Assembly (NCBI GenBank): GCA_014872815.1
Contig: WKFK01000015.1
Span: 434,001-498,000 of the forward strand
Origin: Paracoccaceae bacterium
Lineage (GTDB): Bacteria; Pseudomonadota; Alphaproteobacteria; Rhodobacterales; Rhodobacteraceae
Reading direction: 5' to 3'
DNA: 64,000 bases
Every line of letters begins with the position of its first letter. Position 1 is the stretch's first letter. Shown piece by piece: positions 17,715-30,561 of this stretch. The notes below the pieces were generated by a model. That model saw nothing but the letters and a program-made list of their open reading frames with translations. It did no database searches and was not told where the DNA came from. A program made the position numbers and the translations under genes.

Positions 17715-19421
17715 ATGAATTCAAACGCGGATATATCAGACAGCGCCAGCAAGCCGGGTGTGGCCGACGTTTTGCGGCAGCGTGCAGAGGTGGCGCGGTT
17801 CCTGTTGGACGCCGGTCTGGGCCTGCGCGACCCTATTGTGTTCCTCACGTTGATCTCCGGGATAAGCCGTGCGGGCATGATCTTTGCCATCAATGAGACC
17901 GCGCGCAGCCATGCCGATGGCCTGGGTTGGTCGGTCTGGCTTTTGCTGCTCTGTGCGGTGGGCATGGTGGTGTCGGCGTACCTGCAAAAGGTGCGGGCCT
18001 TCACATTGATCACCCGTATTGAGGCGCAGATGCGCCTCCGCTTGTCCGAGCTGCTGCTGCGGGCCAACATCGATTTCCTGATCTCCGGGCAGCACGGCAA
18101 AGTCTATGGCGCGATGACGGCGGAGGTGAACCAACTGGCGCAGGCCGTGATCCATCTGGTGGAAGCGATTGGCGCGGCGATTGTGTTGCTGTTTGCCATT
18201 CCCTACCTGTTTTTTGTCAGTTGGATTGCCGGTGTTGCCGCGGTGGCCGCAATTGCGCTCGGCGGCATTGGCTTTGCCTTGATGGACGGCCCCGCGCGGG
18301 TCTGGGCCTTAAAGGCGTCCGACAGTTTTGCCGCTTATTGTGACCGGGTCAGCGACATGTTGGGCGGCTGGAAAGAGCTGCGGCTGCGGGCCAGTCGGCG
18401 CGCGGCGCTGGAGGCGGAAACCAAAGACGTGATCGCGGCGCAGGTGGCCCACAAGATGCGTTCCGAGCGGCTGTTTGCAGCCAGCACCGGCGGCGGGCAG
18501 GTCGCTGTGGCACTGTTGATGTGTTTTGTGGTGATCGTGCTGCCGCAGATGCAGGGCGGCGATGCGATTGTGATGTTTCAGGTGCTGACCATCATTTTTC
18601 TGGTGAACGGTCCCACGGAGCTGGTGTTCAACACTTTGCCGGTTTTGAGCCGGGCGGAGAACAGCTTTTACAAGATCAGAGCTGTGGAGGCGGAGTTAAG
18701 CGCGGCGCAGAGTTTGGCGCTGACGGCGGCGCCGACACTTTTGGAAAGCTTTGACGAGATTGCTCTGTGCGGGGTCGAAGCCAATGTTGGCGAGGCCCGA
18801 GACGGAGTAGTGCCGTTTCACCTAGGGCCCATTGACCTGACCTTCCACCCCGGCGAAACGGTGTTCATCTGCGGTGGCAACGGCTCTGGCAAAACCACGC
18901 TTTTGTCGTTGATAACCGGAATGCGGCATCCTGAGGCGGGAGAGATCACGCTGGATGGCGCGACGCTGACGGACAGCACGACCGCCAGCTATCGCGAGCT
19001 GTTTTCGGCGGTGTTTGCGCAGTACCACCTGTTTGACCATGCCTATGGGCTGACCGACGCGGAGCTGGGGGAATTGGAAACACGGATTGCGCAGCTGGGG
19101 CTGGCGCAGCGGGTGCAGTTGTTGGGCGACAAGTTTTCCAACACCTCCTTGTCGGCCGGGCAAAGTCGCCGTTTGGCGCTGGCCGTGGCCTTGGCGGAGC
19201 AGCGGCCGATAATTGTGCTGGATGAATTTGCCGCAGATCAGGACCCGGCCAACCGGGCGTTCTTCTATGACGTGTTGATGCCGGAATTATCGGCATCCGG
19301 GCGGCTTGTCTTAGCAGTGACACATGATGATCACCAATTTGGGAAATGTGATCGCTTGATCAAAATGGACGCGGGGCGCATCGTGTCAGATGAGCGTATG
19401 CCGCGCCGCAAAGAGGTTTGA
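17715..19421 (+). CDS. ABC exporter of the cyclic-peptide/siderophore (PvdE/SyrD-like) type
   Basis: 568 residues, a half-transporter with permease and ATPase fused. About six membrane segments span residues 30-320. The nucleotide-binding domain starts near residue 350, with Walker A CGGNGSGKTT (about 385-394), the signature LSAGQSRRLALA and Walker B PIIVLDEFAADQDP. The degenerate signature and the F-A-A-D-Q-D-P segment resemble the PvdE/SyrD 'cyclic peptide export' family and not MsbA. No NRPS gene is in the window. It is followed after 4 nt by a membrane protein and converges on the inositol-lipid operon, so lipid or lipopeptide export is possible. The substrate is unknown. Confidence 0.8.
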   Translation: MNSNADISDSASKPGVADVLRQRAEVARFLLDAGLGLRDPIVFLTLISGISRAGMIFAINETARSHADGLGWSVWLLLLCAVGMVVSAYLQKVRAFTLITRIEAQMRLRLSELLLRANIDFLISGQHGKVYGAMTAEVNQLAQAVIHLVEAIGAAIVLLFAIPYLFFVSWIAGVAAVAAIALGGIGFALMDGPARVWALKASDSFAAYCDRVSDMLGGWKELRLRASRRAALEAETKDVIAAQVAHKMRSERLFAASTGGGQVAVALLMCFVVIVLPQMQGGDAIVMFQVLTIIFLVNGPTELVFNTLPVLSRAENSFYKIRAVEAELSAAQSLALTAAPTLLESFDEIALCGVEANVGEARDGVVPFHLGPIDLTFHPGETVFICGGNGSGKTTLLSLITGMRHPEAGEITLDGATLTDSTTASYRELFSAVFAQYHLFDHAYGLTDAELGELETRIAQLGLAQRVQLLGDKFSNTSLSAGQSRRLALAVALAEQRPIIVLDEFAADQDPANRAFFYDVLMPELSASGRLVLAVTHDDHQFGKCDRLIKMDAGRIVSDERMPRRKEV

Positions 19422-19425
19422 GTTT

Positions 19426-20208
19426 ATGACTTTATCACAAGAGGCGCCAAGCCGGGCCACGGGGCTGGCGATGTTGGTGGCGCTGATCACCACCAGTTTT
19501 GTGACCGTGGTGGTGAATGTGCAGATGTATTCGGCGCGTTGGAAATTTGCGGCGTTTTACCCGGAGAAGGCCGCCGATCGGCCCTCCACGATCAGTGAAT
19601 CGATTGCTGACCCGCGCATTGGCGAGCCGTTTGCCGATTGGCTGCTACTCAGTGCGCCGCTGTTGTTTGTGGGGGTCACTTGTTTGATTGTGTCCACGTG
19701 GTGGGCGCTCAAGCTTGGTGGGCAGGTGACGGTCAAAATCACGCTGGTGACTTGGGTGTTGATCACGCTTCAGGCGATGGCCTCGGTGGGCATGGTGATC
19801 CTGAGCCAGTATCGCTTTCCGGATTTTCGCGATCAGCATATGGCGGGTAGCTATCTGTTCTTTTTCTCACAGGCCTTTGTGGTGGTTGCGGGGGAAATCC
19901 TATCGCGGGCCTATGCGGGCTTGGGCGCGGAGGGTCAGGTGGCTGGACGTATCTGGTCGCCGCGGTTTGCGCGCTGGCGGCGGACGTTCGTCTGGGTGCC
20001 GATTGTGCTTGGGCTGGTGTATCTGTGCCTGTTTCTGGGCAAGGGGTATGCGCCAGAGGCACTGCGCTATGAGGTTTATTGGGCCTATGTCAGCACGGAG
20101 CTTTTCCTGCTGAGCTCGTTTTTGTTTTACATGATGAGCTATGCGCCGGACATGTGGCGGGTGTGGAAGCGCGGCCGTGTGGGCTATTCGTCGCTGGAGG
20201 CGTCCTGA
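19426..20208 (+). CDS. Integral membrane protein of unknown function
   Basis: 260 residues from ATG 19426, ten bases after AAAGAGG. About six hydrophobic segments are visible, near residues 12-32, 65-85, 95-115, 130-155, 185-205 and 220-240. A conserved-looking extracytoplasmic stretch carries PSTISESIADPRIGEPF. The serine/isoleucine-rich S-E-S motif followed by P-x-x-G-x-x-F faintly recalls Frag1/DRAM/Sfk1-type proteins, but I would not assign it. It is co-transcribed with the ABC exporter and its 3' end overlaps the convergent CDP-alcohol phosphotransferase gene by 25 nt. Confidence 0.6.
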   Translation: MTLSQEAPSRATGLAMLVALITTSFVTVVVNVQMYSARWKFAAFYPEKAADRPSTISESIADPRIGEPFADWLLLSAPLLFVGVTCLIVSTWWALKLGGQVTVKITLVTWVLITLQAMASVGMVILSQYRFPDFRDQHMAGSYLFFFSQAFVVVAGEILSRAYAGLGAEGQVAGRIWSPRFARWRRTFVWVPIVLGLVYLCLFLGKGYAPEALRYEVYWAYVSTELFLLSSFLFYMMSYAPDMWRVWKRGRVGYSSLEAS

Positions 20209-20795
20209 GCGCGCAGCATTTGGCTGGCACGGCGGGCGCGTTGTAGCGCGGTGACATGGGCAAGAATGGCGAACCCTGCGAGGCCCCAGATAATGGCGGT
20301 GTCGCCGAGCACACCTGCGATTAGCAGCATGGCGCAGAGGTAGATCACGCGCTCCATCCGCTCAAAGAAGTCGGGCCAGTCGGTGTTGGACACGGGCATT
20401 TCGATGGCGGTGCGGGCTTTGGCGTAGGATGTGATGACCGAGCCGGAGAAACACGCCAGCGCCAGCGGCCAGGCGTCATGCATATGCGCCAACGTGGCGA
20501 GCACGGCGAGTTCTTGGTAGCGGTCGACCATGGCGTCAAAATAGCCGCCGGCTTTGGTGGACATGTTGCGGCGACGGGCGACAGCGCCGTCCAAGGCGTC
20601 AAACACAAAGGCCACGATCAGGGTTGCGCCGTAAACTGCGGGGGACTGGTGCCAGAGGTAGGCCAGGGACACGAGGATGATCAGCACCAGACCGATAAAG
20701 GTCACCTGATTGGGCGTCAGGCGGGCTTTGACCAAAGGCGTTGCCATGGCTTCCCACAGCGGGTCGATGGTGGATTTCATTAGGCCATCAATCAT
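20184..20795 (-). CDS. CDP-alcohol phosphatidyltransferase, phosphatidylinositol-phosphate-synthase-like
   Basis: 203 residues with about six membrane helices. The full family motif is present: D-A-L-D-G-A-V-A-R, then eight residues, G-G-Y-F-D, three residues, D-R-Y. The D-R-Y ending and small size resemble archaetidylinositol-phosphate synthases and the mycobacterial phosphatidylinositol-phosphate synthase, which use inositol-3-phosphate. I choose ATG 20795 because AAAGGA lies 6 nt upstream. It is the last gene of an operon that also encodes inositol-3-phosphate synthase and a CdsA-like enzyme, which supports transfer of inositol phosphate onto a CDP-activated lipid. Phosphatidylglycerol-phosphate synthase activity cannot be excluded from sequence alone. 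Confidence 0.8.
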   Translation of the reverse strand: MIDGLMKSTIDPLWEAMATPLVKARLTPNQVTFIGLVLIILVSLAYLWHQSPAVYGATLIVAFVFDALDGAVARRRNMSTKAGGYFDAMVDRYQELAVLATLAHMHDAWPLALACFSGSVITSYAKARTAIEMPVSNTDWPDFFERMERVIYLCAMLLIAGVLGDTAIIWGLAGFAILAHVTALQRARRASQMLRAQDASSDE

Positions 20796-20806
20796 GGCGT
20801 AGTCCT

Positions 20807-22333
20807 TTAGGTATAGCTGCGGATCGCGAGGCGGCGGATCTTGGCAAGACGCTCGGCGCGGTCGGTGAGCTGGGCGGTGCGTGTTGGGTTGGGGGCATAG
20901 CTCGCGGAGATGCGGGTTTTGAGCGTGGCGGCGGCGTCGCACACGCTGCCCGCCCAACCCATCAGCGGCGCGGCCAGCGTGGCGGTGCCAAGCATACCGG
21001 CGTGGCGGGCGGAGCAGACGCGGATGTCGCGGTTGAGCGCATCCGCCAGCGTTTGGGCAAACACCGGATCGGAGGCCACGCCGCCGACAATGGAGAGTGG
21101 GCCGGAGGTTTGGGTGCCTTTTTCGCGGGCGACTTTGGACATGGCCCAGCGGAGATTGAGCGCAACGCCTTCGATGGCGGCGCGGCGCAGGGCGGCTTTG
21201 TCGTGGTGCAGGCTGAGGCCATGGAACGTGCCGCGCAGGGCGGAGTTGTCCACCGGCACCCGTTCGCCCGCCAGCCAAGGCAGGAAGAACGGGTCATCTT
21301 CCTGTGGGGGTCCGATGTCGGCAAAGCGGGTGTCTTTGGCGCCGTTGCCGGTGAGTTGGCAGACCCAATCGAGCGCGGATCCGGCGTTTTCCTGGCTGGC
21401 GATCAACAGGGGACGGTGGTTCAGGCCGGAGGTGATGGTGGCGTAGGAATGCGCCACGGAGAGGCGGCGGTTGGGGAAGAAGCCTGCGATCCAGGCGGAG
21501 GTGGCGACAGAGATGTGCAGCGCGCCGTCGCTAACTTCGCCGGAGCCGAGCGCTGAGGCCATGACATCTGACGTGCCGCCCAGGACTTTTACGGTGGCGT
21601 CCAGACCAAGCTCTGCGGCAGCTTGGGGCGTGAGAGGGCCCACGATGGTGTCGGCCTGGGTGATGGGCGCCAGTTTGGCGCGGTCGATGCCAGTGAGGGC
21701 GCAGAGTGCATCGGACCAGCCTTCGCGGCCGGTACGGCTGTCCATGACCCAACTCAGGTTGGCGCTTTCGGGGCTGGTGGTCATTTCGCCGGTGGCGCGG
21801 TGCACCAACCAGTCTTTTACATCCACCATCCAGCGGGTTTTGGCGTAAATTTCCGGTTCCTGCTGCATCACCCAGAGCATTTTTGCGGTCGGGTCCATAC
21901 CGTTTTTTGCCGGCGCGCCATTGGCCAGGCGCAGCCATTTCAATAGGCGCGGGAGGTTGTAGCCATGCACCTCCGGGAAACCGCCGGTGAGGGTTTTGCC
22001 CAAAGGGGCGGCGCGTTTGTCGAGCCAGGTTAGGCACGGCCTTAAGGGCGCGCCATTGGCATCACAACAGACCAGCCCGCAGAGTTGTGAGGAAAACACC
22101 AGCGCGGCGGCGCGTTTGGACAGGTCCGGCACCTCTTGGCGCAAGGTGGAAAGCGCATGAGCCAATGCGCGCCACCAATCCTCAGGCGCCTGTTCGGCAA
22201 TGCCCCCGGTTTTCAGGACCAACGGATAGCTTTCGGTCACGCGGGCCAAAACGGAAAGGTTGCTGTCCACCACGCCGACCTTCACGCCGGAGGTGCCAAA
22301 GTCGGCTGATATGACCAAATCGCCTTGTGTCAC
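20807..22333 (-). CDS. FGGY-family carbohydrate kinase, substrate unknown
   Basis: About 508 residues, xylulokinase/glycerol-kinase fold. The N-terminal phosphate loop DFGTSGVKVGVVD and the second-domain segments VLGGTSDVMASALGSG and LSIVGGVASDPVFAQTLAD are clear. I start at GTG 22333, eight bases after GAGG. A GTG at 22342 would overlap that site. Members phosphorylate sugars or polyols with ATP in the cytosol. It sits 11 nt before the inositol-lipid transferase gene and 107 nt after the PimA-like gene, so the product may feed the head group or its glycosyl donor. Nothing in the sequence identifies the substrate. Confidence 0.85.
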   Translation of the reverse strand: MTQGDLVISADFGTSGVKVGVVDSNLSVLARVTESYPLVLKTGGIAEQAPEDWWRALAHALSTLRQEVPDLSKRAAALVFSSQLCGLVCCDANGAPLRPCLTWLDKRAAPLGKTLTGGFPEVHGYNLPRLLKWLRLANGAPAKNGMDPTAKMLWVMQQEPEIYAKTRWMVDVKDWLVHRATGEMTTSPESANLSWVMDSRTGREGWSDALCALTGIDRAKLAPITQADTIVGPLTPQAAAELGLDATVKVLGGTSDVMASALGSGEVSDGALHISVATSAWIAGFFPNRRLSVAHSYATITSGLNHRPLLIASQENAGSALDWVCQLTGNGAKDTRFADIGPPQEDDPFFLPWLAGERVPVDNSALRGTFHGLSLHHDKAALRRAAIEGVALNLRWAMSKVAREKGTQTSGPLSIVGGVASDPVFAQTLADALNRDIRVCSARHAGMLGTATLAAPLMGWAGSVCDAAATLKTRISASYAPNPTRTAQLTDRAERLAKIRRLAIRSYT

Positions 22334-22440
22334 GCGGCGCACCTCAAAAAACTATCGTCATAAAATAGCGCCTTTCACAGGCCAAAACCCTGAGACCGGT
22401 GTGACATGAGGGTGGCGAGTTTGGCAAGGGCCGGAACGCT

Positions 22441-23559
22441 TTAGGCCCGCGCGGCCAAGCCCTGTGCGTATAATTTCACGTATTCTGGGCCAACCGTGGC
22501 GACGTCAAACTCCATCGCGTGTTTGCTGGCCCATTTGGTCAATTGGGCGCGTTTGTCGGGATTGTTTGCCAGATGGATGAGGGTCCGCGCGAGGGCGGGG
22601 GCGTCGCCAGGCGGCACTAGCAGGTCCGCACCCGAGCCGGTCATCACGGTGGCAAAGCCTTCGTTGGCAGCGGCAACAGGCAGGGTGCCTGCGGCCATGG
22701 CCTCGATCAGCACAAGGCCAAAGCTTTCGCCATGCAGAGCAGGCGCGGCAAAGACATCGGCAGAGGCTATGAGCGCACGCGCTTCGGCATCGCTGGGCGG
22801 CGGCTGGAAGGATACGTGCGGCAGGGTGGCAGCTTGGGTGCGTAGGTCGGGTTCCTCTTCACCTTTGCCTGCGATGATCAATTCGGCGTTTGGGACGGTG
22901 GTGGTGACAGCGCGCCATGCGTCGAGCAGAACGGACACGCCTTTGCGGGCTTCCAGGCGGCCCATATAGACCACGCGGAAGGTCTCAGACGACTTGGCAG
23001 TCTCTCCAGCAGCGCGCCACTCTGACAGGTCGATGGTCGGCGGCAAGATGGCGGGCAGCGGATTGGCACCGGCAGCCTCCCATTGGCGATAGGGCGCCAT
23101 AGAGGGGACCACAACGCGGCTGATCCGGCGGTTGAAGTAATGCCCAACGCGGCGCAGGGCGGCAGACATTGGGTCGAAACCCGCGTTCTCCGGCAGGGTA
23201 GCGTGGAAGGTGGCGATGCTGGGCAATTTCAGGGCGCGCCACATCTGCCATGACAATAGTGGGGTCCATGGCGTGTGCATGTGAACGACATCCGCGCCCC
23301 AGTTGCGCAGGTCGGATACAGCGGCCTTGATCTCTCCGCGCGTGGCGCGGCTGACCTCAAAGCTGGTGCCATGGATCGACCACGGGCGGGCGGTTCCAAC
23401 TGTCATCAGGCCCTCTTCCGTGTGTCCGGGGTCGCCGGGCGGGGCGACAATGCGCACCTCATGGCCTTGGGTACGGCACCAAGCGGCGAGGTCACGGATG
23501 TTGCTTTGCACCCCGCCGGGGCGGTCCATGGCATAGGGTGTCAGCTGCACGATCTTCAT
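22441..23559 (-). CDS. GT4-family glycosyltransferase resembling phosphatidylinositol mannosyltransferase PimA
   Basis: 372 residues, GT-B fold. The N-terminus (MKIVQLTPYAMDRPGGVQSN, followed by an HEVRIVAPPG block) matches the P-Y-x-x-D-x-P-G-G-V-Q-S opening of PimA-type enzymes. The C-terminal domain has GRLEARKGVSVLLDAW, NAELIIAGKGEEEP and the donor-site motif HGESFGLVLIEAMAAGT. No signal or membrane span is present, so it works on the inner face of the membrane. PimA adds mannose to the inositol ring of phosphatidylinositol. The same operon makes inositol phosphate and its lipid transferase, so glycosylation of an inositol lipid is the best inference. Donor sugar unknown. It overlaps the LptG-like gene in ATGA. 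Confidence 0.8.
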   Translation of the reverse strand: MKIVQLTPYAMDRPGGVQSNIRDLAAWCRTQGHEVRIVAPPGDPGHTEEGLMTVGTARPWSIHGTSFEVSRATRGEIKAAVSDLRNWGADVVHMHTPWTPLLSWQMWRALKLPSIATFHATLPENAGFDPMSAALRRVGHYFNRRISRVVVPSMAPYRQWEAAGANPLPAILPPTIDLSEWRAAGETAKSSETFRVVYMGRLEARKGVSVLLDAWRAVTTTVPNAELIIAGKGEEEPDLRTQAATLPHVSFQPPPSDAEARALIASADVFAAPALHGESFGLVLIEAMAAGTLPVAAANEGFATVMTGSGADLLVPPGDAPALARTLIHLANNPDKRAQLTKWASKHAMEFDVATVGPEYVKLYAQGLAARA

Positions 23560-24707
23560 GGCAGGCTCCCTGTGTTGCGGCGTGGGCGTGGTAGGTAGCC
23601 GGCTTGATATAGTTGGAGGAGCGTGGCGAGGCCTAGCGCAAAGAGGGCGGGCAGTGTTGCTGCCAGCATGGGGGACAAGACGCCATGTATGCCAAGCGCC
23701 CAGAAGACTTTCACGGACACCACAGCGAGGTAGCCTACCGTGGCGAGCGCCAGCAGTTTGAACGGCGAAAGCCGGCGGCCTTGGGTGCCGAGGCTGGCAA
23801 GGCTCACACCGAGGAAGGCAAAGATGCCGGGCAGGAAGATCGCTACCTTGCGCACGGCGAGCGCGGTGGCGGCATCGGCAGCGGTTGGGGTGGCCTCGGA
23901 GGTGTCGGTGACAGCAATGACGCGGGCGACATCATTGGGCAGGTAGTAGCCGTCGATGCCGTACCAGCGCAGTTTTTCGAAAGAAATATTGAGCGCAAAG
24001 TCGAGAGTCGGTTCAAAGTCCGGCGGTTCGCTCACGCCAGGTTCCCAAATGGTCACGTTTTTGAGCGTCCAAACGTTGCGAAGTCCACGCGGTGTGACGG
24101 TCTCTGCATGCAGAACAAAGGTGAGGTCCGGCTGATCGATGCCGTCAAACAGCATGAGATTGCTGAGGTGGGCCTCTGGGCCACGCGTGACTGTGGCGCG
24201 CAGGGCACGGGTGTCCGTGCGCATCCATTGGGTGCCGACATCGGTGTTGTGGTAGCGATTGCCATAATCGCCCAGATTGGCCGCGACCTGCGCTTTCACC
24301 GCCGAAGGGCGTAACCAGTTTTCGCCGGCCATTTGCACGGTGCCAAGCAGCACGCCAGAGATCAGCAGCGCGGTCAGACGTAGGCTTGGGCTGGCACCTG
24401 CGGCGGCGAGCACCACATCGTCCAGCCGTTGGTGGCGCAAGAGGGTCACGACAAAGCCGCCTGCGACGCAGGCCATAGTGAGCAGGCGGGTCACGATGTC
24501 GGTGCTGCGGTAACCAATGTAGGGGAAGAGTACCTGCCACAGCGGGCTGTCCGTGGCCTCGGCGCGGGCGCGCACGGTGTCGAGCCATTTGGCCAGATCG
24601 ATGGAGAGGGCCACGACCAGCAGGATGAACATCATGAAGCTAATGGCGGCGAGATCGCCGCGCACCATGGCGCGCACGGCCAGGCCGGTGTGTCGCCGCC
24701 AGCTCAT
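23556..24707 (-). CDS. LptG/LptF-family permease (second of a pair)
   Basis: 383 residues from the ATG at 24707 that overlaps the upstream stop (ATGA). Topology follows the YjgP/YjgQ family: paired N-terminal helices (AISFMMFILLVVALSI; LTMACVAGGFVVTLL), a third helix, a large periplasmic beta-jellyroll-like domain (about residues 130-275), then three C-terminal helices. In the Lpt system such permeases, with LptB, extract lipopolysaccharide from the inner membrane. Here the gene is embedded between CdsA-like and PimA-like genes, not in the usual lptFG-lptD neighbourhood. A dedicated role in moving the operon's lipid product is therefore likely. It has no ATPase of its own in the operon. Confidence 0.8.
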   Translation of the reverse strand: MSWRRHTGLAVRAMVRGDLAAISFMMFILLVVALSIDLAKWLDTVRARAEATDSPLWQVLFPYIGYRSTDIVTRLLTMACVAGGFVVTLLRHQRLDDVVLAAAGASPSLRLTALLISGVLLGTVQMAGENWLRPSAVKAQVAANLGDYGNRYHNTDVGTQWMRTDTRALRATVTRGPEAHLSNLMLFDGIDQPDLTFVLHAETVTPRGLRNVWTLKNVTIWEPGVSEPPDFEPTLDFALNISFEKLRWYGIDGYYLPNDVARVIAVTDTSEATPTAADAATALAVRKVAIFLPGIFAFLGVSLASLGTQGRRLSPFKLLALATVGYLAVVSVKVFWALGIHGVLSPMLAATLPALFALGLATLLQLYQAGYLPRPRRNTGSLP

Positions 24708-25852
24708 GTGCGGCCTCGTTGCGGGGTCATCAGCGCCTCGCCGCGCCAGAGTAGGTAGGCGAGCGGTGGACCTAGGTAGAAGGTGAGCGCGAGAAGCAGG
24801 AGAGCTGCTGTTGGGATCATGGCAGACCATTCGGCCAACAACGCGCGGCTGGCCACATCGGTGGACATCATCAACAGCGCGGCCAAGGGCAGGGCGGCGT
24901 GGCGCCAGGGGCCAGCGCCGCCAGCCAGCAAGGCGGCCAGCGCCAGCAGCCCCGCCATGGGCACCATCAGGGCGCGGGTCACAAGACGGGTGATCTGGGC
25001 AGGCTCGTTGGCATTGAGGTCCAGCAGTTGCTCCGCGGCTGTGCGGCTGGTGTCCGGCGCGGGCAGGGCGTCTGCCATTTGAAAGGCAAAGCTGGCCTGG
25101 GCGGTATTGAATCGGTTGAGCGGTTTGACGTGGTCATTTGGGTATGGCGCTTCGAGCACGGAAAGCGATTGCAGCGTGATGGTGTGGGTGTCGGCCGGGG
25201 CCGGGTCAGTGACCTGCCAGTCTTGCGATTGCGCGACGCGCCAGGTGCCGTTCTGGTTGGGCTGAAACACAAAAAGCTGGCCGCGCGTTTGATCTTCATT
25301 TTGCGGCGGCGTGGCGATGAATGTGGTGTCGCGGATGGTTTGCAGCGCAGTTTCGTTACTGCTGGTGTTGATACGCGACAGCACGTGGTCTTTTTGCAGT
25401 TCGGCGAGGGCGAGGCGTTCGCCAAATTTGGCCATCGGCAGTACAAGACCGGCGTTCAGAAAGCTGAGCAGCCCACCGAAGGTGCCCAGACACAGCACAA
25501 AGGCGATCACGCGGCCCCAGTGGATACCAGCGGTGGCAAGGATCACCAATTCGCCGCGATTGCGGGCGTCCTGGGTGGCAAAATAGGTGGCGATCAACAG
25601 GCTGATGGCGAGGGCGAGGTCGAGGATTTCCGGCGTCTTGTAACTGAGCAGATGCAGCACGTCGCGGGCGGTGCCGTCGTAGCGCAGGGCGTGCTCCATC
25701 AGGGTGGTGAAGCTTTCGGCGAGGAAGATCGCCTCGATCACCAGAAGCAGGAGTAAAAGTCGCAGCACCAAGGGTTTGCCCAGTACACGCACAATTGGCA
25801 GCCGGGGCAAGGGCAGCGCAAATCTGCGTGTATGTGGGCGGTTTTGGCTCAT
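24704..25852 (-). CDS. LptF/LptG-family permease (first of a pair)
   Basis: 382 residues starting MSQNRPHTRR, a positively charged cytosolic tail before the first helix (VLRLLLLLLVIEAIFLA). The segment FATQDARNRGELVILATAGIHW matches the F-x-x-x-x-x-D-x-E-l-x-x-l-x-x-a-G loop of LptF/LptG. A periplasmic domain spans about residues 135-270 and three helices follow. A TTG start at 25909 is possible but would add an unlikely N-terminus, so I prefer ATG 25852. It is translationally coupled to the second permease. Together they form a heterodimer candidate that would borrow LptB or another ATPase. Confidence 0.8.
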   Translation of the reverse strand: MSQNRPHTRRFALPLPRLPIVRVLGKPLVLRLLLLLLVIEAIFLAESFTTLMEHALRYDGTARDVLHLLSYKTPEILDLALAISLLIATYFATQDARNRGELVILATAGIHWGRVIAFVLCLGTFGGLLSFLNAGLVLPMAKFGERLALAELQKDHVLSRINTSSNETALQTIRDTTFIATPPQNEDQTRGQLFVFQPNQNGTWRVAQSQDWQVTDPAPADTHTITLQSLSVLEAPYPNDHVKPLNRFNTAQASFAFQMADALPAPDTSRTAAEQLLDLNANEPAQITRLVTRALMVPMAGLLALAALLAGGAGPWRHAALPLAALLMMSTDVASRALLAEWSAMIPTAALLLLALTFYLGPPLAYLLWRGEALMTPQRGRT

Positions 25853-25892
25853 GGGCAGAGTGTCTCTGCCAAGGCGGGGGCTGGCAAGGGGC

Positions 25893-26780
25893 TCACCACA
25901 ATTGCGCAACCGTGTGTAGCGCTGTGATGCCCGCGCCGGCGGCGATCCAGCTGTCGAGACTGTCCAAAAGGCCGCCCTGACGGGGTAGGACTTGGGGGTA
26001 GTCTTTCACACCAGAAATGCGCTTGTGACGGGAGGCCGCGAGATCGCCAACCACGGCGAGGACACCCACAAGCTGCGCGGTGAGGGCAGTGGGCAGGAGC
26101 GGCAGGCCAAGAGCGGCGGCGGTGATCAGTGAGAGGGTCAGCAAAGCGAAGCCGCCGCCGAGCAGGCCTTCGACGGTTTTGTTGGGGCTGAGGGTGGGGA
26201 AGGCCTTGGTGCGGCCCCACATGGCGCCGAAGAACAGGGCAAAGCTGTCGAAGATTTCCACCATCAGGTAGGTTGCGAGCAGGAGTGGGCCGAGGGTTGG
26301 ATTGACGGTGCCGGAGGCCAGTAGAATCGCGGGTAGGATTGGGAAGACCAAAAGATCAGTAACAATTTGTCCCCGGGTTTTGTCGCGTTCTTCACGCAAC
26401 AGATGGATCGCGAATAGTACCACCCACAAAGGAACCGCCAGATCTTTTTTGATTGGGTCTAACATTGTTAAGAATGCCCAACCCCCAAAGAATAAAGCAA
26501 GGTGCAAGAGGCGCGGGTTCGATTGGATACGCACAGCGTCCACTTCGAATGTAATGCGTGCAACCATTATAGGCATAGCCAGATAAAGGGCATATGGACC
26601 GAGCCAAAACATCGCCGTCAGCACCGCAATTAGGGCGACGGCGGTGCCAAGTGTTTTGCCAAACTCGGCTGCGTCTTTGCGGCGGGCGGGGATCAGCGCC
26701 AGCACGGCAATGATGCCAATACCAAAGGTGTAGATGGCGACAATGGCGATGGTGACGTGAGGCAAGGTGAGTGCGGTCAT
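25893..26780 (-). CDS. CdsA-like phosphatidate cytidylyltransferase with a degenerate signature
   Basis: 295 residues, about eight membrane helices. The CdsA signature region near the C-terminus reads SRHKRISGVKDYPQVLPRQGGLLDSLDSW. The K-R, K-D and final D residues are kept. The usual H-G-G is Q-G-G and D-R-x-D is D-S-x-D. The family makes CDP-diacylglycerol from phosphatidate and CTP at the inner membrane. As a second CdsA in a lipid operon it may activate a different lipid phosphate. It overlaps the reductase gene in ATGA. Bases 26380-26600 are visibly more AT-rich than the surroundings. The substituted residues leave activity uncertain. Confidence 0.78.
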   Translation of the reverse strand: MTALTLPHVTIAIVAIYTFGIGIIAVLALIPARRKDAAEFGKTLGTAVALIAVLTAMFWLGPYALYLAMPIMVARITFEVDAVRIQSNPRLLHLALFFGGWAFLTMLDPIKKDLAVPLWVVLFAIHLLREERDKTRGQIVTDLLVFPILPAILLASGTVNPTLGPLLLATYLMVEIFDSFALFFGAMWGRTKAFPTLSPNKTVEGLLGGGFALLTLSLITAAALGLPLLPTALTAQLVGVLAVVGDLAASRHKRISGVKDYPQVLPRQGGLLDSLDSWIAAGAGITALHTVAQLW

Positions 26781-27574
26781 TTGGCCTCGTGTTTGCGGAT
26801 GATCCGCCTCTGGTGCCAGCGCAGGATCGGTGCAATCAGGCTGCTAAGACCATTCAGCAGCAGCATCTGTGGCCCCGGTGTGACCACCGGTTTGCCTGCT
26901 TCCATGCCTTTTATGAGCCGTGCGGCCACGTCCTCTGGTTGCCACAACCCACCGCCTTCGGAAATCTCCTGTGTGGCGCTGGGTTTGGTGCGTTTCTCGG
27001 CTGCCAGCTGGGGGGTATCTGTGTCGGGCGGGTAGATCAGTGTCACTGAGATATTGGCGCTTTCCAGTTCCAAATGCAGGATTTCCGCCAGTCCTCGCAG
27101 GGCAAACTTGGAGGGCGCATAGGCCCCGTATCCGTAGATGCCAAAGAAAGCCGCGCCGGAGGCGATCAGGCCAAAGCGTCCACCGCCCGCCACCGCCATG
27201 GGGGCGTGCAGGGTTTCGATGAAGGTGAGCGTGCCAAAGTAGTTCACGTCCATGTGCCGCTGATGCTGTTCAAAGCTCTGGTCTTTGAACAGGCCCGGTT
27301 CGGCCATGCCTGCGCTGGCGATGGCCATATCCGGCGGTCCGAGGTTATCAATGGCGGTTTCCAGTGCGTCGACAAAACCGTCGCGGTTGGTCACATCCAC
27401 TGCAAAGACTTCGACTTCAATGTTGGGCGCGCCCTCCAATAGCGCCTCGCGTGCGGCCAACAGTCTGGACGCATCCCGGGCAAACAGCGCGAGGTTGTAC
27501 CCTTTGAGGGCCAGCTCCCAGGCGGCGGCGAAGCCAATGCCGCTGGAGCCGCCGGTTATGAAGGCGCTGGGCAT
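26777..27574 (-). CDS. 3-ketodihydrosphingosine reductase, eukaryote-like (KDSR type)
   Basis: 265 residues, short-chain dehydrogenase fold. The nucleotide loop is GGSSGIG (8-14) and the catalytic residues are S139, Y152 and K156 (YAPSK). It closely follows animal KDSR over its whole length: LGPPDMAIASAGMAEPGLF, SKFALRGLAEILHLELE, the diagnostic YPPDTDTP (181-188), then RTKPSATQEISE and a P-E-D-V-A motif. KDSR reduces 3-ketosphinganine to sphinganine with NADPH, the second step of sphingolipid synthesis. Its ATG overlaps the TAA of the inositol-phosphate synthase gene by one base. Among all genes of the operon this one most firmly points to sphingoid-base synthesis. Confidence 0.85.
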   Translation of the reverse strand: MPSAFITGGSSGIGFAAAWELALKGYNLALFARDASRLLAAREALLEGAPNIEVEVFAVDVTNRDGFVDALETAIDNLGPPDMAIASAGMAEPGLFKDQSFEQHQRHMDVNYFGTLTFIETLHAPMAVAGGGRFGLIASGAAFFGIYGYGAYAPSKFALRGLAEILHLELESANISVTLIYPPDTDTPQLAAEKRTKPSATQEISEGGGLWQPEDVAARLIKGMEAGKPVVTPGPQMLLLNGLSSLIAPILRWHQRRIIRKHEAK

Positions 27575-28686
27575 TAGGTGTCGTCGTTCACAAAGCGCAG
27601 GACCACATCATGCGCATCGGTGTCTTCGATCTGCTCCGGCGGGTGTTTGAACAAGAAGGCTGAAGCTTCGGAAATGGGGCCAGCCAAACCACGATCCTTT
27701 GCGATACGTGCCAGACGGATGGCCACCAGTGCTTCGGCGGCGGCGTTGGGGCTGTCTTCGACGTCCAGACGTACCTCGATGTTGGTGCGCGCACCGCCAA
27801 ACAGACGGCCTTCCAGACGCACATAAGCCACTTTGCGGTCGTTCAGCCACGGCACATAATCGGATGGGCCAATGCGGATGTCGGTGTCGTCCAGCCGCTG
27901 CTCCATGGCGGATTGGACCGCTTCAGTTTTGCTTTCGCGTTTGTTGGTGAGGCGGGCGTTTTCGCTCATGTTGAGGAAGTCGGTATTGCCGCCCACGTTA
28001 AGCTGATAGGTGCGGTCAATCTCGACACCGCGCATTTCGGCCAGATTGGCGAGTGTGCGGTGCAGGATGGTCGCGCCCATCTGTGCCTTGAAATCGTCAC
28101 CCAAAATTGGAACGCCGGCAGCGCGAAATTTCTCCGCCCAAACCGGATGAGAGGCTATGAAGACCGGGATCCCGTTGACCACAGCCACGCCCGCCTCAAG
28201 CGCACATTCAACGTAAAATTCCACGGCGTCTTGAGACCCAACAGGCAGGAAGATGATCATCACCTCTGCTTCAAGCGCGCGGAGCTTGGCGACGATGTCT
28301 TCTTTGTTCAGAGCGGGGGCGTCGGATAGCCGGAAGCTGCGGTCTGCCGGATTGGCCAGCATGTGTGCGGCCACACCATCCAGATCGGGGCCGCGCACCA
28401 CAGGGGCGGTCTGATCGGCCAGATCGGTGTGGAAGCGTTCGGTGCAATTTGGCGCGGCAAAGGCCGCTTCGCCCAGGGTTTTGCCGACTTTGCGGCTATC
28501 CACATCAAAGCCAGCCACCAGTTCCACGTGGCCCGGTGTGTAGCCCGCGAGTTCTGGAAAACTCACGCCAACCGCCTGATCACCCAAGGCACGGCAATAG
28601 GACACGCCTTGGATCAGTGAGCTGGCGCAATTGCCAACGCCAACAATAACGGTGCGGATAGGGGAGGACGCTGGGGTGTTGGTCAT
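27574..28686 (-). CDS. myo-Inositol-3-phosphate synthase
   Basis: 370 residues, the compact archaeal/bacterial form. NAD-binding loop VGVGNCASSLIQG near the N-terminus, then the catalytic-domain motifs GDDFKAQMGATILHR and LNVGGNTDFLNM, and the later SDYVPWLNDRKVAYVRLEG with catalytic lysines. It converts glucose-6-phosphate to 1D-myo-inositol-3-phosphate in the cytosol using NAD+. Its ATG overlaps the stop of the DUF4833-like gene. Placement with a phosphatidylinositol-phosphate-synthase-like gene argues that the product goes into lipids and not into osmolytes. Confidence 0.93.
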   Translation of the reverse strand: MTNTPASSPIRTVIVGVGNCASSLIQGVSYCRALGDQAVGVSFPELAGYTPGHVELVAGFDVDSRKVGKTLGEAAFAAPNCTERFHTDLADQTAPVVRGPDLDGVAAHMLANPADRSFRLSDAPALNKEDIVAKLRALEAEVMIIFLPVGSQDAVEFYVECALEAGVAVVNGIPVFIASHPVWAEKFRAAGVPILGDDFKAQMGATILHRTLANLAEMRGVEIDRTYQLNVGGNTDFLNMSENARLTNKRESKTEAVQSAMEQRLDDTDIRIGPSDYVPWLNDRKVAYVRLEGRLFGGARTNIEVRLDVEDSPNAAAEALVAIRLARIAKDRGLAGPISEASAFLFKHPPEQIEDTDAHDVVLRFVNDDT

Positions 28687-29330
28687 TCGGTATAAGCTCC
28701 GCCGGAAACAGCAAGGGTATGGGTGACAAAAAGACCGGTTTGAGGGTCGTGAGTATAAAGACGCAGGCGCGTGACTTTTGGGAACAGTCCACTCTCGTCC
28801 ACGTCGAGATAAGCGTAGATCAGGCGGTAATCCCGATCGTCAAAACGGGCATATAGGGCTGCGGTAAAAGGCGCGGTTTGGCGCAGTTCAAGGGGGTGGG
28901 ACTTGAGGCCATTGAAAGTCAGGCGCAGCGTATTGGGTGTGTCGGTCTTTCGCAGTTTAACGCCAAAGCCAAAGACCCGTTCATACCAGCGCAGTGGCAT
29001 GACCTGGCCGTTTTCCTGAAACCGGCGCCAGTACACGGACACAGGTTTTTCTTCGTTCAGTTTCCCGGATTGGTCAAAGTGGGTGGTGTAGACAACGGTG
29101 TTGGCATTCAGTGTGCGTTGCAAAAAAAACAATTGGTGCGCATCGGCGGGATGGCGAAATGCGCGGTTTGCATGGGGCAGATGCGAGGTCTCACTGCGCG
29201 ACAGGTGCGTGAGCGCCGGCTTGGCTGACACGCTGGCAACTGGAGGGACAGTCAGACCCACAATTATAAGGCAGACGCCTATTGTGATCCGGCGCAGGCG
29301 CGGCAAAGTCGTGAATACGTGCCCGATCAT
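28683..29330 (-). CDS. Secreted DUF4833-like protein
   Basis: 215 residues with a signal peptide (IGVCLIIVGLTVPPVASVSA). The mature part carries LFFLQRTLNANTVVYTTHF, then PVSVYWRRFQENGQV and YERVFGFGVKLR. This pattern of N-x-N-t-v-v-Y followed by V-Y-W-x-R and Y-G matches DUF4833 as I remember it. Function unknown; a periplasmic beta-sandwich is likely. It lies 4 nt after the serine-palmitoyltransferase-like gene and overlaps the inositol-phosphate synthase gene, so it is an integral member of the lipid operon. It could bind or shuttle the lipid product in the periplasm. Confidence 0.65.
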   Translation of the reverse strand: MIGHVFTTLPRLRRITIGVCLIIVGLTVPPVASVSAKPALTHLSRSETSHLPHANRAFRHPADAHQLFFLQRTLNANTVVYTTHFDQSGKLNEEKPVSVYWRRFQENGQVMPLRWYERVFGFGVKLRKTDTPNTLRLTFNGLKSHPLELRQTAPFTAALYARFDDRDYRLIYAYLDVDESGLFPKVTRLRLYTHDPQTGLFVTHTLAVSGGAYTE

Positions 29331-29334
29331 GTGG

Positions 29335-30561
29335 CTATTCCGCGCTAAGCCGTTGCCGGGTGGCGGTGGCGGCAGAATGTGCCTGTGAAACGGCGGTGAT
29401 CACCCGATCGATGTCTGCCTCGGTATGGGCTGCGGAAATAAAGAATCGGATCCGCGGCATGTCTTTGGGGATGCCCACATGCACGACCGGCGGCGCGTAG
29501 ATGCCTTGCTGCATCAGGGCTTCGGCAACAAACACACAGTCGTCGGGGGTTTCAAACAGGATGGGCACCACGGCCTCGCCAATTGCGGTGCCTGTGTTCA
29601 ATCCAGCCTCAGCCGCTTTGCGCATGAAGTATTGCGAGTTGGCGCGCAGTTTGGTGACGCGCTCTGGTTCCTCTCGCAACAGACGTAACGCGGCGTGTGC
29701 ACTTGCGGTTGTCGCTGGGGGCAGACCGACGGAATAGACAAAACCAGGTAGGCAAAATCGCATCCATTCAATCACGTCTGCATTGGCGGCGACAAACCCA
29801 CCAGAGGACGCAAAACTTTTGGACAGGGTCCCAATCGCGATTTCCACGCGCTCCGGGTCTACGTCAAAATGCTCACACAGCCCGCGGCCGGTTTCGCCCA
29901 ACACGCCATAAGAATGGGCCTCGTCCAGCAGCAGCCAAGCGTCATAAGCGTCTTTCATGTCCAGCAGGCGCGGCAGGTCTGTGATGTCGCCGTCCATGGA
30001 GAACAGCCCGTCGGTACAGATCAGGACACGGCCATAATCGGCGCGGTGTTTGTGCAGCAGGCGTTCCAGATCATCGAGATCGTTGTGCGCGTAGGTTTCC
30101 ATGCGGGCTTTTACGCCGCGGGCCCCCACCACAATTGAATTATGGGAGAGTTCGTCCACCAGAACCAGATCACGCGGCCCAAGCAGAAGGCCGATAACAG
30201 ACACATTTGTGAGGTAGCCTGAGATGATCGAGAGAACGCCGCCGACACCTAGAAAATCGGCCATGTCCTTTTCCAGCGCGCGGTGGGCCAGACGCTCACC
30301 ACCGACAAGGCGGGAGGCGCCCACACCGGTGCCTTGCGCGTCAATGGCATCTTTGGCGGCCGCCACGGTTTTGGGGTGATGCATGAGGCCAAGGTAGTCG
30401 TAGTGCGACATCGACAGGTAGCCGTCCGGCCATTGATCGGATTGAGCTTCCAGCGCATCCGTGGGGACGAAATAAGGATGCCCGTTTTCGATCAACGCAC
30501 GGCCGCTCAGGCGAAAGCGGCGTTCTGAAAAGGCCAGGAAACTAGAGCTTCTGGGTGTCAT
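29335..30561 (-). CDS. Alpha-oxoamine synthase, probably serine palmitoyltransferase
   Basis: 408 residues, PLP fold type I. The PLP lysine is K248 in GTLSKSF. LLLDEAHSYGVLG holds D213 and H216, and VDELSH holds H140. GTGVGASRLVGGERLAHRALE is the alpha-oxoamine synthase N-terminal motif, and PGFVYSVGLPP follows the lysine as in many serine palmitoyltransferases. The family condenses an amino acid with an acyl thioester. The KDSR-type reductase in the same operon makes serine plus long-chain acyl-CoA/ACP the best guess, giving 3-ketosphinganine. Glycine-using relatives (ALAS, KBL) and BioF remain formal alternatives. It is the first gene of the leftward lipid operon, so control of the pathway probably acts here. 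Confidence 0.8.
   Translation of the reverse strand: MTPRSSSFLAFSERRFRLSGRALIENGHPYFVPTDALEAQSDQWPDGYLSMSHYDYLGLMHHPKTVAAAKDAIDAQGTGVGASRLVGGERLAHRALEKDMADFLGVGGVLSIISGYLTNVSVIGLLLGPRDLVLVDELSHNSIVVGARGVKARMETYAHNDLDDLERLLHKHRADYGRVLICTDGLFSMDGDITDLPRLLDMKDAYDAWLLLDEAHSYGVLGETGRGLCEHFDVDPERVEIAIGTLSKSFASSGGFVAANADVIEWMRFCLPGFVYSVGLPPATTASAHAALRLLREEPERVTKLRANSQYFMRKAAEAGLNTGTAIGEAVVPILFETPDDCVFVAEALMQQGIYAPPVVHVGIPKDMPRIRFFISAAHTEADIDRVITAVSQAHSAATATRQRLSAE

Follow-up and report, generated by a model that had tools for sequence, protein, structure and literature searches.

The window, a 64,000-nucleotide stretch of a Paracoccaceae bacterium genome (contig WKFK01000015.1, positions 434,001 to 498,000 of the forward strand), contains a ten-gene operon at 20184-30561 that is investigated here as a candidate locus for an inositol-containing lipid. 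A scan of the open reading frames (ORFs) against Pfam identified ten leftward ORFs, all on the minus strand, and confirmed each of the families that a first-pass annotation, made from the sequence alone, had named for them. In transcription order (spt, DUF4833, mips, sdr, cdsA, lptF, lptG, gt, fggy, pips), the genes are:

29335..30561, minus strand: serine palmitoyltransferase (SPT)-like alpha-oxoamine synthase (AONS), 408 aa, first gene (PF00155; placed in trees)
28683..29330, minus strand: DUF4833 protein, 215 aa (PF16117, 81.5 bits, cut-off 23.1)
27574..28686, minus strand: inositol-3-phosphate synthase (MIPS), 370 aa (PF01658; PDB 1gr0, 361 bits)
26777..27574, minus strand: short-chain dehydrogenase/reductase (SDR), 3-ketosphinganine-reductase-like, 265 aa (PF00106)
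25893..26780, minus strand: second CdsA-type cytidylyltransferase, 295 aa, with QGG for HGG (PF01148)
24704..25852, minus strand: LptF-like permease, extra copy, 382 aa (PF03739, 61 bits, cut-off 27.9)
23556..24707, minus strand: LptG-like permease, extra copy, 383 aa (PF03739, 71 bits, cut-off 27.9)
22441..23559, minus strand: PimA-like GT4 glycosyltransferase, 372 aa (PF00534; PimA, 168 bits)
20807..22342, minus strand: FGGY kinase, xylulokinase-like, 511 aa, with an altered sugar-site motif (PF00370 and PF02782)
20184..20795, minus strand: phosphatidylinositol-phosphate-synthase (PIPS)-like CDP-alcohol phosphotransferase, 203 aa (PF01066, 57 bits)

Five of the nine junctions overlap by 1–4 nt, as had been claimed for most neighbours, with starts chosen to fit the overlaps (ATG at 25852 for lptF, 24707 for lptG, and 20795 for pips). 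The lptF and lptG starts lie downstream of those of their longest ORFs, and pips most likely begins at 20795 (203 aa) and not at 21278, the start of the ORF as listed. From the proximal end, there is a gap of 4 nt between spt and the DUF4833 gene, followed by overlaps of 4 nt (DUF4833/mips), 1 nt (mips/sdr), and 4 nt (sdr/cdsA). A 40-nt gap separates cdsA from lptF, which an alternative TTG start at 25909 would turn into a 17-nt overlap. In the distal part, lptF/lptG and lptG/gt each overlap by 4 nt, while gaps of 98 nt and 11 nt precede fggy and pips. The GC content is 0.635 in the distal half (20184-25909) and 0.589 in the proximal half (25910-30561), against a window mean of 0.598. Every operon protein with any NCBIfam match scored under the curated equivalog cut-off (bits/cut-off: MIPS 380/638, CdsA 65/385, LptF 76/230, LptG 49/240, FGGY 267/380), and the proteins are therefore treated as family members, not as certified orthologues.

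The arrangement is conserved but confined to a minority of genomes. Of 390 genomes in the order, 15 have DUF4833, the window genome among them, so the co-occurrence across Rhodobacterales that the first-pass annotation had suggested looking for was cast too wide. Among 385 genomes sampled from the class, only three had it: the window genome, one congener, and one weak match under the cut-off. Eleven of the 14 other DUF4833-bearing genomes of the order have all ten genes in unchanged order (with SPT cut by a contig end in L020). The three exceptions have the first seven genes (L021), lack spt (L033), or lack spt, fggy, and pips at the site (L029), and both L029 and L033 carry an SPT homologue elsewhere in the genome. 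We also scanned named genomes with an SPT alignment and analysed the best 80 of 137 loci, counting loci cut by contig or stretch ends as incomplete. Among these 80, the eight-gene core from spt to gt was in order in 44, DUF4833 was present in 48, and all ten genes lay inside the fetched stretch in 16. For stretches ending before fggy, an fggy homologue (51–59%) was located within ~ 2 kb downstream, with pips adjoining, in 8/8 genomes (G770-G777). The G-numbered genomes and the named genomes overlap, since some are the same assemblies. Carriers include Shimia, Salinihabitans, Pseudooceanicola, Maritimibacter, Stappia, Hongsoonwoonella, and a Mesorhizobium metagenome-assembled genome (MAG). The window genome is assigned to the genus Shimia, judging from named loci that are up to 94% identical in SPT and share the same flanks, while between families the operon order stays constant although the flanking genes differ. 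The locus is split in two genomes of one genus (G087, G378). No description of the operon was found among the matches listed in the literature searched, which was mostly outside subscription papers, and the accessible part of a paper on roseobacter lipids does not mention inositol (PMC8319176).

The second gene provides a link to inositol lipids from another phylum. The DUF4833 protein has an N-terminal hydrophobic segment (residues 13–37 by hydropathy) and is probably periplasmic. Of 72,556 plasmid records, two contained DUF4833, from Spirosoma oryzicola and Hymenobacter volaticus. In both clusters, PgpA, GtrA, and DUF5686 genes are followed by a CDP-alcohol phosphotransferase with DUF4833 and then by a PAP2 gene. 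In Spirosoma, a single 429-aa ORF (L205:8227-9516) combines a BT_1523-type phosphatidylinositol phosphate (PIP) synthase (389.5 bits, cut-off 350) with DUF4833 (161.7 bits). Against the phosphoinositol dihydroceramide synthase model, whose cut-off is 480 bits, the two PAP2 neighbours score 316 and 343. The gene kinds are those of the characterised Bacteroides cluster, as described in the accessible parts of two papers (PMC9246714, PMC8791184). Given that DUF4833 is fused to or adjoins a PIP synthase in another phylum, we tie it to inositol lipids and suggest that it marks inositol-lipid clusters. The name DUF4833 was not found in the literature searched, among the matches listed.

The head-group genes carry both conserved and altered motifs. 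The CDP-alcohol signature DxxDGxxAR(x8)GxxxDxxxD is present in the window PIPS and in all 12 operon homologues printed. Operon CdsA reads QGG for HGG in 47/47 readable loci (50 were examined, three having no cdsA in the stretch), and likewise throughout a set of 14 loci plus the window. The window copy reads DS, while a separate CdsA elsewhere in the window genome has the canonical signature (HGG..DR). The FGGY kinase matches E. coli XylB at 144 bits and keeps Asp259 in 21/21 sequences, yet the residue aligned to the His of the E. coli xylulokinase QMHG motif, which we take to be sugar-binding, is Cys or Ala in all 21. Because the CdsA signature and the FGGY sugar motif are altered throughout, we infer that both are dedicated enzymes whose substrates would be unlike those of their housekeeping counterparts. 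Besides the operon copies, the window genome has one CdsA and one LptFG pair, and it carries one PgpA.

The best solved relative of the AONS is the Sphingobacterium SPT (231 bits), followed by E. coli KBL (215 bits). Its K248, H140, D213, and H216, presumably the pyridoxal phosphate lysine and core residues of the family, are invariant in 12 sequences, and its substrate would be an amino acid, probably serine. In a 70-row tree, the window lineage (36 rows, 100/100) fell outside the group of S. multivorum and alphaproteobacterial SPTs, pairing with it at 92/85. In a 46-row tree with five plasmid-borne homologues added, one of them RkpG-like, the lineage (26 rows, 100/99) absorbed all five. The deep position of the lineage shifts between the trees, with different sisters, and is weak (81/66 in the 46-row tree). 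As no SPT model was passed and this deep placement is weak and shifting, we do not call the AONS an SPT by sequence alone. For the SDR, the sole PDB match below 1e-20 is the 3-ketosphinganine reductase (KDSR) TSC10 (89 bits, phmmer). An adjacent pair in S. meliloti also resembles the two proteins, with an RkpG-like protein 42% identical to the AONS (299 bits) and an RkpH-like SDR 34% identical to the window SDR (147 bits by BLAST, not comparable with the phmmer score for TSC10). The names RkpG and RkpH are our own assignment from gene order and are absent from the record. The first-pass labels thus hold in part: the synthase is SPT-like by its best solved relative but lies outside the sampled SPT clade and near an RkpG-like protein, and the eukaryote-like KDSR has TSC10 as its match but resembles an RkpH-like SDR too.

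AONS homologues 42–46% identical were also observed in Desulfovibrionaceae (L097-L100, L102-L119), with no other operon genes nearby except a few weak glycosyltransferase matches. On an Acidisoma plasmid (L207:11151-15081), a row of genes beside capsule genes encodes an SDR, an AONS that shares 50% identity with the window SPT, a member of the sterol desaturase family, and a glycosyltransferase.

PimA is the sole PDB match of the GT4 protein below 1e-12 (168 bits); EpsE and MshA are its top NCBIfam models, with a weak lead. A canonical LptFG pair lies apart from the operon, on contig C16 of the window genome, and as canonical CdsA and LptFG both exist elsewhere, the operon CdsA and LptFG are extra copies. 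At a threshold of 1e-3, BLAST matched the operon LptF and LptG neither to the LptF/G-like proteins encoded in the fetched alphaproteobacterial spt neighbourhoods nor to the genome's own canonical pair, so the operon pair looks like an independent recruitment.

Relatives of the AONS occur in a second kind of cluster. In two uncultured Rhizobiales MAGs (L088, L090), they stand beside a ceramide synthase (CerS)-like N-acyltransferase, a ketosynthase, PAP2, a desaturase, MIPS, a PIPS-type ORF, PgpA, and a glycosyltransferase. The L090 PAP2 scores 123.6 bits with the phosphoinositol dihydroceramide synthase model, under its cut-off of 480, and the L090 desaturase passes PF08557. This cluster resembles an almost complete alphaproteobacterial gene set for inositol phosphoceramide. 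More distant CerS-like, PAP2, ketosynthase, and MIPS versions were found in L089 and L094; in L095 and L096 no further query gene exceeded the threshold.

On balance, we favour reading the operon as devoted to a phosphoinositol lipid that is glycosylated and built on a sphingoid-type base, since the closest solved relatives (SPT, KDSR, Ino1, PIPS, PimA) point to one pathway. The conservation and the independent clusters in another phylum lend good support to an inositol (glyco)lipid locus. PgpA in 12 and a desaturase in 7 of the 48 DUF4833 loci, the neighbours of the AONS relatives in L088 and L090, and the extra LptFG near sphingolipid genes in Caulobacter (PMC11324152) also speak for the reading. 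A sphingoid anchor is likely, while ceramide is unproven, given that neither a CerS-like nor a PAP2-type synthase match was found in the whole genome. The inositol sphingolipid of the first-pass annotation is retained as an inositol lipid whose base is probably of the sphingoid type, with ceramide unproven; its expectation that a ceramide synthase would lie elsewhere in the genome met with no match to a CerS-like protein. Each reaction, the product, and its destination are predicted from gene content, order, conservation, and families. The AONS would condense an amino acid, probably serine, with a fatty acyl thioester, and the SDR would reduce the 3-keto group. MIPS would make inositol-3-phosphate, the second CdsA a CDP-lipid, and the PIPS-like enzyme would swap CMP for inositol phosphate. 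A phosphatase would then strip the extra phosphate (PgpA in some relatives' operons, and the single PgpA of the Shimia genome or another enzyme here), after which the PimA-like glycosyltransferase would add a sugar. The extra LptF/LptG, perhaps with the housekeeping LptB and a flanking ABC exporter, could move the product towards the outer membrane, with DUF4833 assisting on the periplasmic side. The view of the operon as a single conserved unit that makes, glycosylates, and exports an inositol lipid is supported, whereas the sugar, the FGGY substrate, and the outer-membrane delivery are conjectured from the gene families.

Several observations count against this reading. The AONS falls under all three NCBIfam SPT models (288/640, 277/500, and 206/670 bits), although the alpha SPT model is strict and was passed by only 3/39 strong alphaproteobacterial matches. 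It groups with RkpG-like proteins, outside the sampled bacterial SPT clade, and no AcpR/AasR stands beside it, though no search was aimed at these two, unlike the Rhodobacteria SPT described in the accessible part of PMC9386255. The window PIPS is under all curated cut-offs (84/170 bits for PIPSynth, 123/180 for archaetidylinositol phosphate synthase, and 67/350 for the BT_1523 type). A CerS-like profile (A3) had no match in the window genome (a 9.8-bit piece, E 0.57) and was missing in 18/19 operon genomes, with only a piece in G041 (E 0.13); the sole match, in G256 (C3:170125-171246, L199, E 1.5e-75), lies away from the operon. The CerS-like label was given because the N-acyltransferase lies within the 20-kb neighbourhood of alphaproteobacterial spt genes in 7/10 stretches (two cut at an edge), and of those ten spt genes only that of G401 is over the NCBIfam cut-off. 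The profile matched 6/6 control genomes, two of which gave no row to it. The PAP2-type phosphoinositol-ceramide synthase model had no match at E<=10 in the window genome; in controls it matched Bacillus subtilis and Deinobacterium under the cut-off and missed Bacteroides ihuae, and it did find L090 and two Cytophagales proteins. The DUF4833 model (pLDDT 87) had no fold match, the family has no known function, and MIPS is absent from both Bacteroidota plasmid stretches fetched. Finally, the desaturases of three DUF4833 loci (L033, L062, L072) match only PF00487 and not PF08557.

Some of these points fit other explanations. The AONS and SDR may make an amino-alcohol lipid anchor, as proposed for rhizobial K-antigen, on which inositol and sugars would form the foundation of a surface glycan, and no ceramide would be involved. 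The identities to the adjacent S. meliloti pair, which lies near a capsule gene, the grouping of RkpG-like rows with the window lineage at 100/99, and the missing CerS-like match are all consistent with this, and rkpGHIJ appear as lipid carrier or anchor genes in the accessible parts of reviews. We nonetheless consider it unlikely, as CerS-like genes, PAP2 genes of the phosphoinositol-ceramide-synthase-like kind, and desaturase genes occur at loci of the nearest branch (the L088-L091 side), and the operon has LptFG and no capsule export gene. The same branch includes the Acidisoma locus with its capsule genes, a mixed context. Less probable still is a conventional phosphatidylinositol glycolipid on diacylglycerol as the product of the inositol genes, with the AONS product a second, separate lipid. 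MIPS, CdsA, PIPS-like, and PimA-like enzymes do form the phosphatidylinositol-mannoside set, and no PAP2 synthase match was found for moving phosphoinositol onto ceramide. Against this, the operon keeps its own altered CdsA in every readable locus despite a canonical CdsA in the genome, the AONS and SDR lie in the same operon with the AONS first, and the same functions stand beside a phosphoinositol-ceramide-synthase-like gene in L088/L090 and in Bacteroidota clusters. The gaps before fggy (98 nt) and lptF (40 nt), the split locus in G087 and G378, and the differing GC of the two halves (0.635 vs 0.589) could suggest unrelated units that are neighbours by chance. The constant order between families with changing flanks, the translational overlaps, and the co-clustering of the same functions in Bacteroidota make this very improbable.

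If the base is indeed sphingoid, head-group attachment may proceed via a CDP-activated sphingoid lipid, which we considered because CerS-like and PAP2 matches are lacking in a genome whose operon retains PIPS, an FGGY kinase, and a CdsA with a changed signature. The boldest candidate substrate for the FGGY kinase and the second CdsA is a phosphorylated sphingoid lipid. The base, acylated or not, would be phosphorylated, perhaps by FGGY, and converted by the altered CdsA to a CDP-sphingoid, to which PIPS would join inositol phosphate directly. Such a route would use no ceramide synthase of known type and no phosphoinositol transfer from phosphatidylinositol, and the PimA-like enzyme and extra LptFG would then yield an outer-membrane bacterial counterpart of the glycosyl inositol phosphoceramides. 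We offer this full route tentatively and regard it as possible but doubtful, because we know of no precedent for a soluble kinase of the FGGY family working on a lipid.

Parallels with known systems are partial. The glycosyl inositol phosphoceramides of fungi and plants consist of a sphingoid base, phosphoinositol, and sugar; they represent the product class proposed here, but their assembly genes differ, and the parallel is an analogy only. The mycobacterial phosphatidylinositol mannoside pathway (Ino1, PIPS, PimA) shares the MIPS, PIPS-like, and PimA-like enzymes, to which the operon adds the AONS/SDR pair, the FGGY kinase, and LptFG in a Gram-negative envelope. The rhizobial rkp-1 region (RkpG/RkpH) also has an AONS homologue (42% identical) next to an SDR homologue (34%), but it is tied to a PKS-like gene and capsule genes, with no MIPS, PIPS, CdsA, or LptFG annotated in that stretch. 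As far as the accessible parts of the papers describe it, Bacteroides thetaiotaomicron BT_1522-BT_1526 (PMC9246714, PMC8791184) shares MIPS, a PIPS-type transferase, and a PgpA-family phosphatase, the last with the operon's relatives; PgpA is the family of the Bacteroides PIP phosphatase. Its sphingoid synthase is elsewhere in the genome, whereas the window operon contains both synthase and reductase. DUF4833 is present in Cytophagales versions of this cluster. Compared with it, the window operon adds CdsA, the FGGY kinase, the PimA-like glycosyltransferase, and LptFG, and its genome has no PAP2 synthase match. Caulobacter CC_1152-CC_1168, again from partly accessible papers (PMC11324152, PMC9386255), likewise has an SPT-like synthase, a reductase, and extra LptF/LptG in one region, but the window differs in synthase lineage, in an SDR not of the CerR epimerase type, in having no CerS-like match, and in lacking AcpR/AasR in the operon.

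Bacterial inositol sphingolipids have been worked out in Bacteroidetes. According to the accessible part of one paper, the alphaproteobacterium Novosphingobium acidiphilum has a phosphoinositol-ceramide-like lipid and no homologues of either known cluster (PMC9246714). Two candidate alphaproteobacterial gene sets are now available, the Shimia/Stappia operon and the Rhizobiales set of L088 and L090 (CerS-like, PIPS, PgpA, PAP2, desaturase). The operon is without two enzymes used by known bacterial inositol-sphingolipid pathways, as neither a CerS-like protein nor a PAP2-type synthase matched in the genome. A gene fusion in Bacteroidota connects DUF4833, a family of no known function, with inositol lipids.

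Relatives of the operon carry accessory genes, all absent from the window operon. These were counted within the fetched stretches of the 48 DUF4833 loci (from the best 80 of 137) at matches >60 bits, with Pfam families verified on few examples. They include a nucleotidyltransferase (31 loci), an additional CDP-alcohol phosphotransferase (28), and a Stealth-type protein (20). PgpA occurred in 12 loci, a desaturase in 7, and a trio of phosphoenolpyruvate (PEP) mutase, thiamine pyrophosphate (TPP) enzyme, and aminotransferase in 15. At L086:5795-9747 and in 14 further loci, the PEP mutase is fused to a nucleotidyltransferase, and the trio lies just upstream of the operon; it was seen in Stappia, Maritimibacter, Salinihabitans, and others. 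Because the trio looks like aminoethylphosphonate synthesis, which we assume to be its role, these relatives may place phosphonate on the lipid.

Two genes next to the distal end of the operon are possible members:

19390..20208, plus strand: membrane protein, 272 aa, convergent with pips (homologues near fggy-pips elsewhere)
17715..19421, plus strand: TIGR01194 (cyclic peptide exporter)-type ABC exporter (305 bits, cut-off 286)

Homologues of the membrane protein (33–38%) adjoin fggy-pips in 4/9 distal stretches (L153, L155, L156, L160). Those of the exporter (39–44%) also occur in four of the nine (L153, L155, L156, L161), with a weak one in L160, and both genes may belong to the system.

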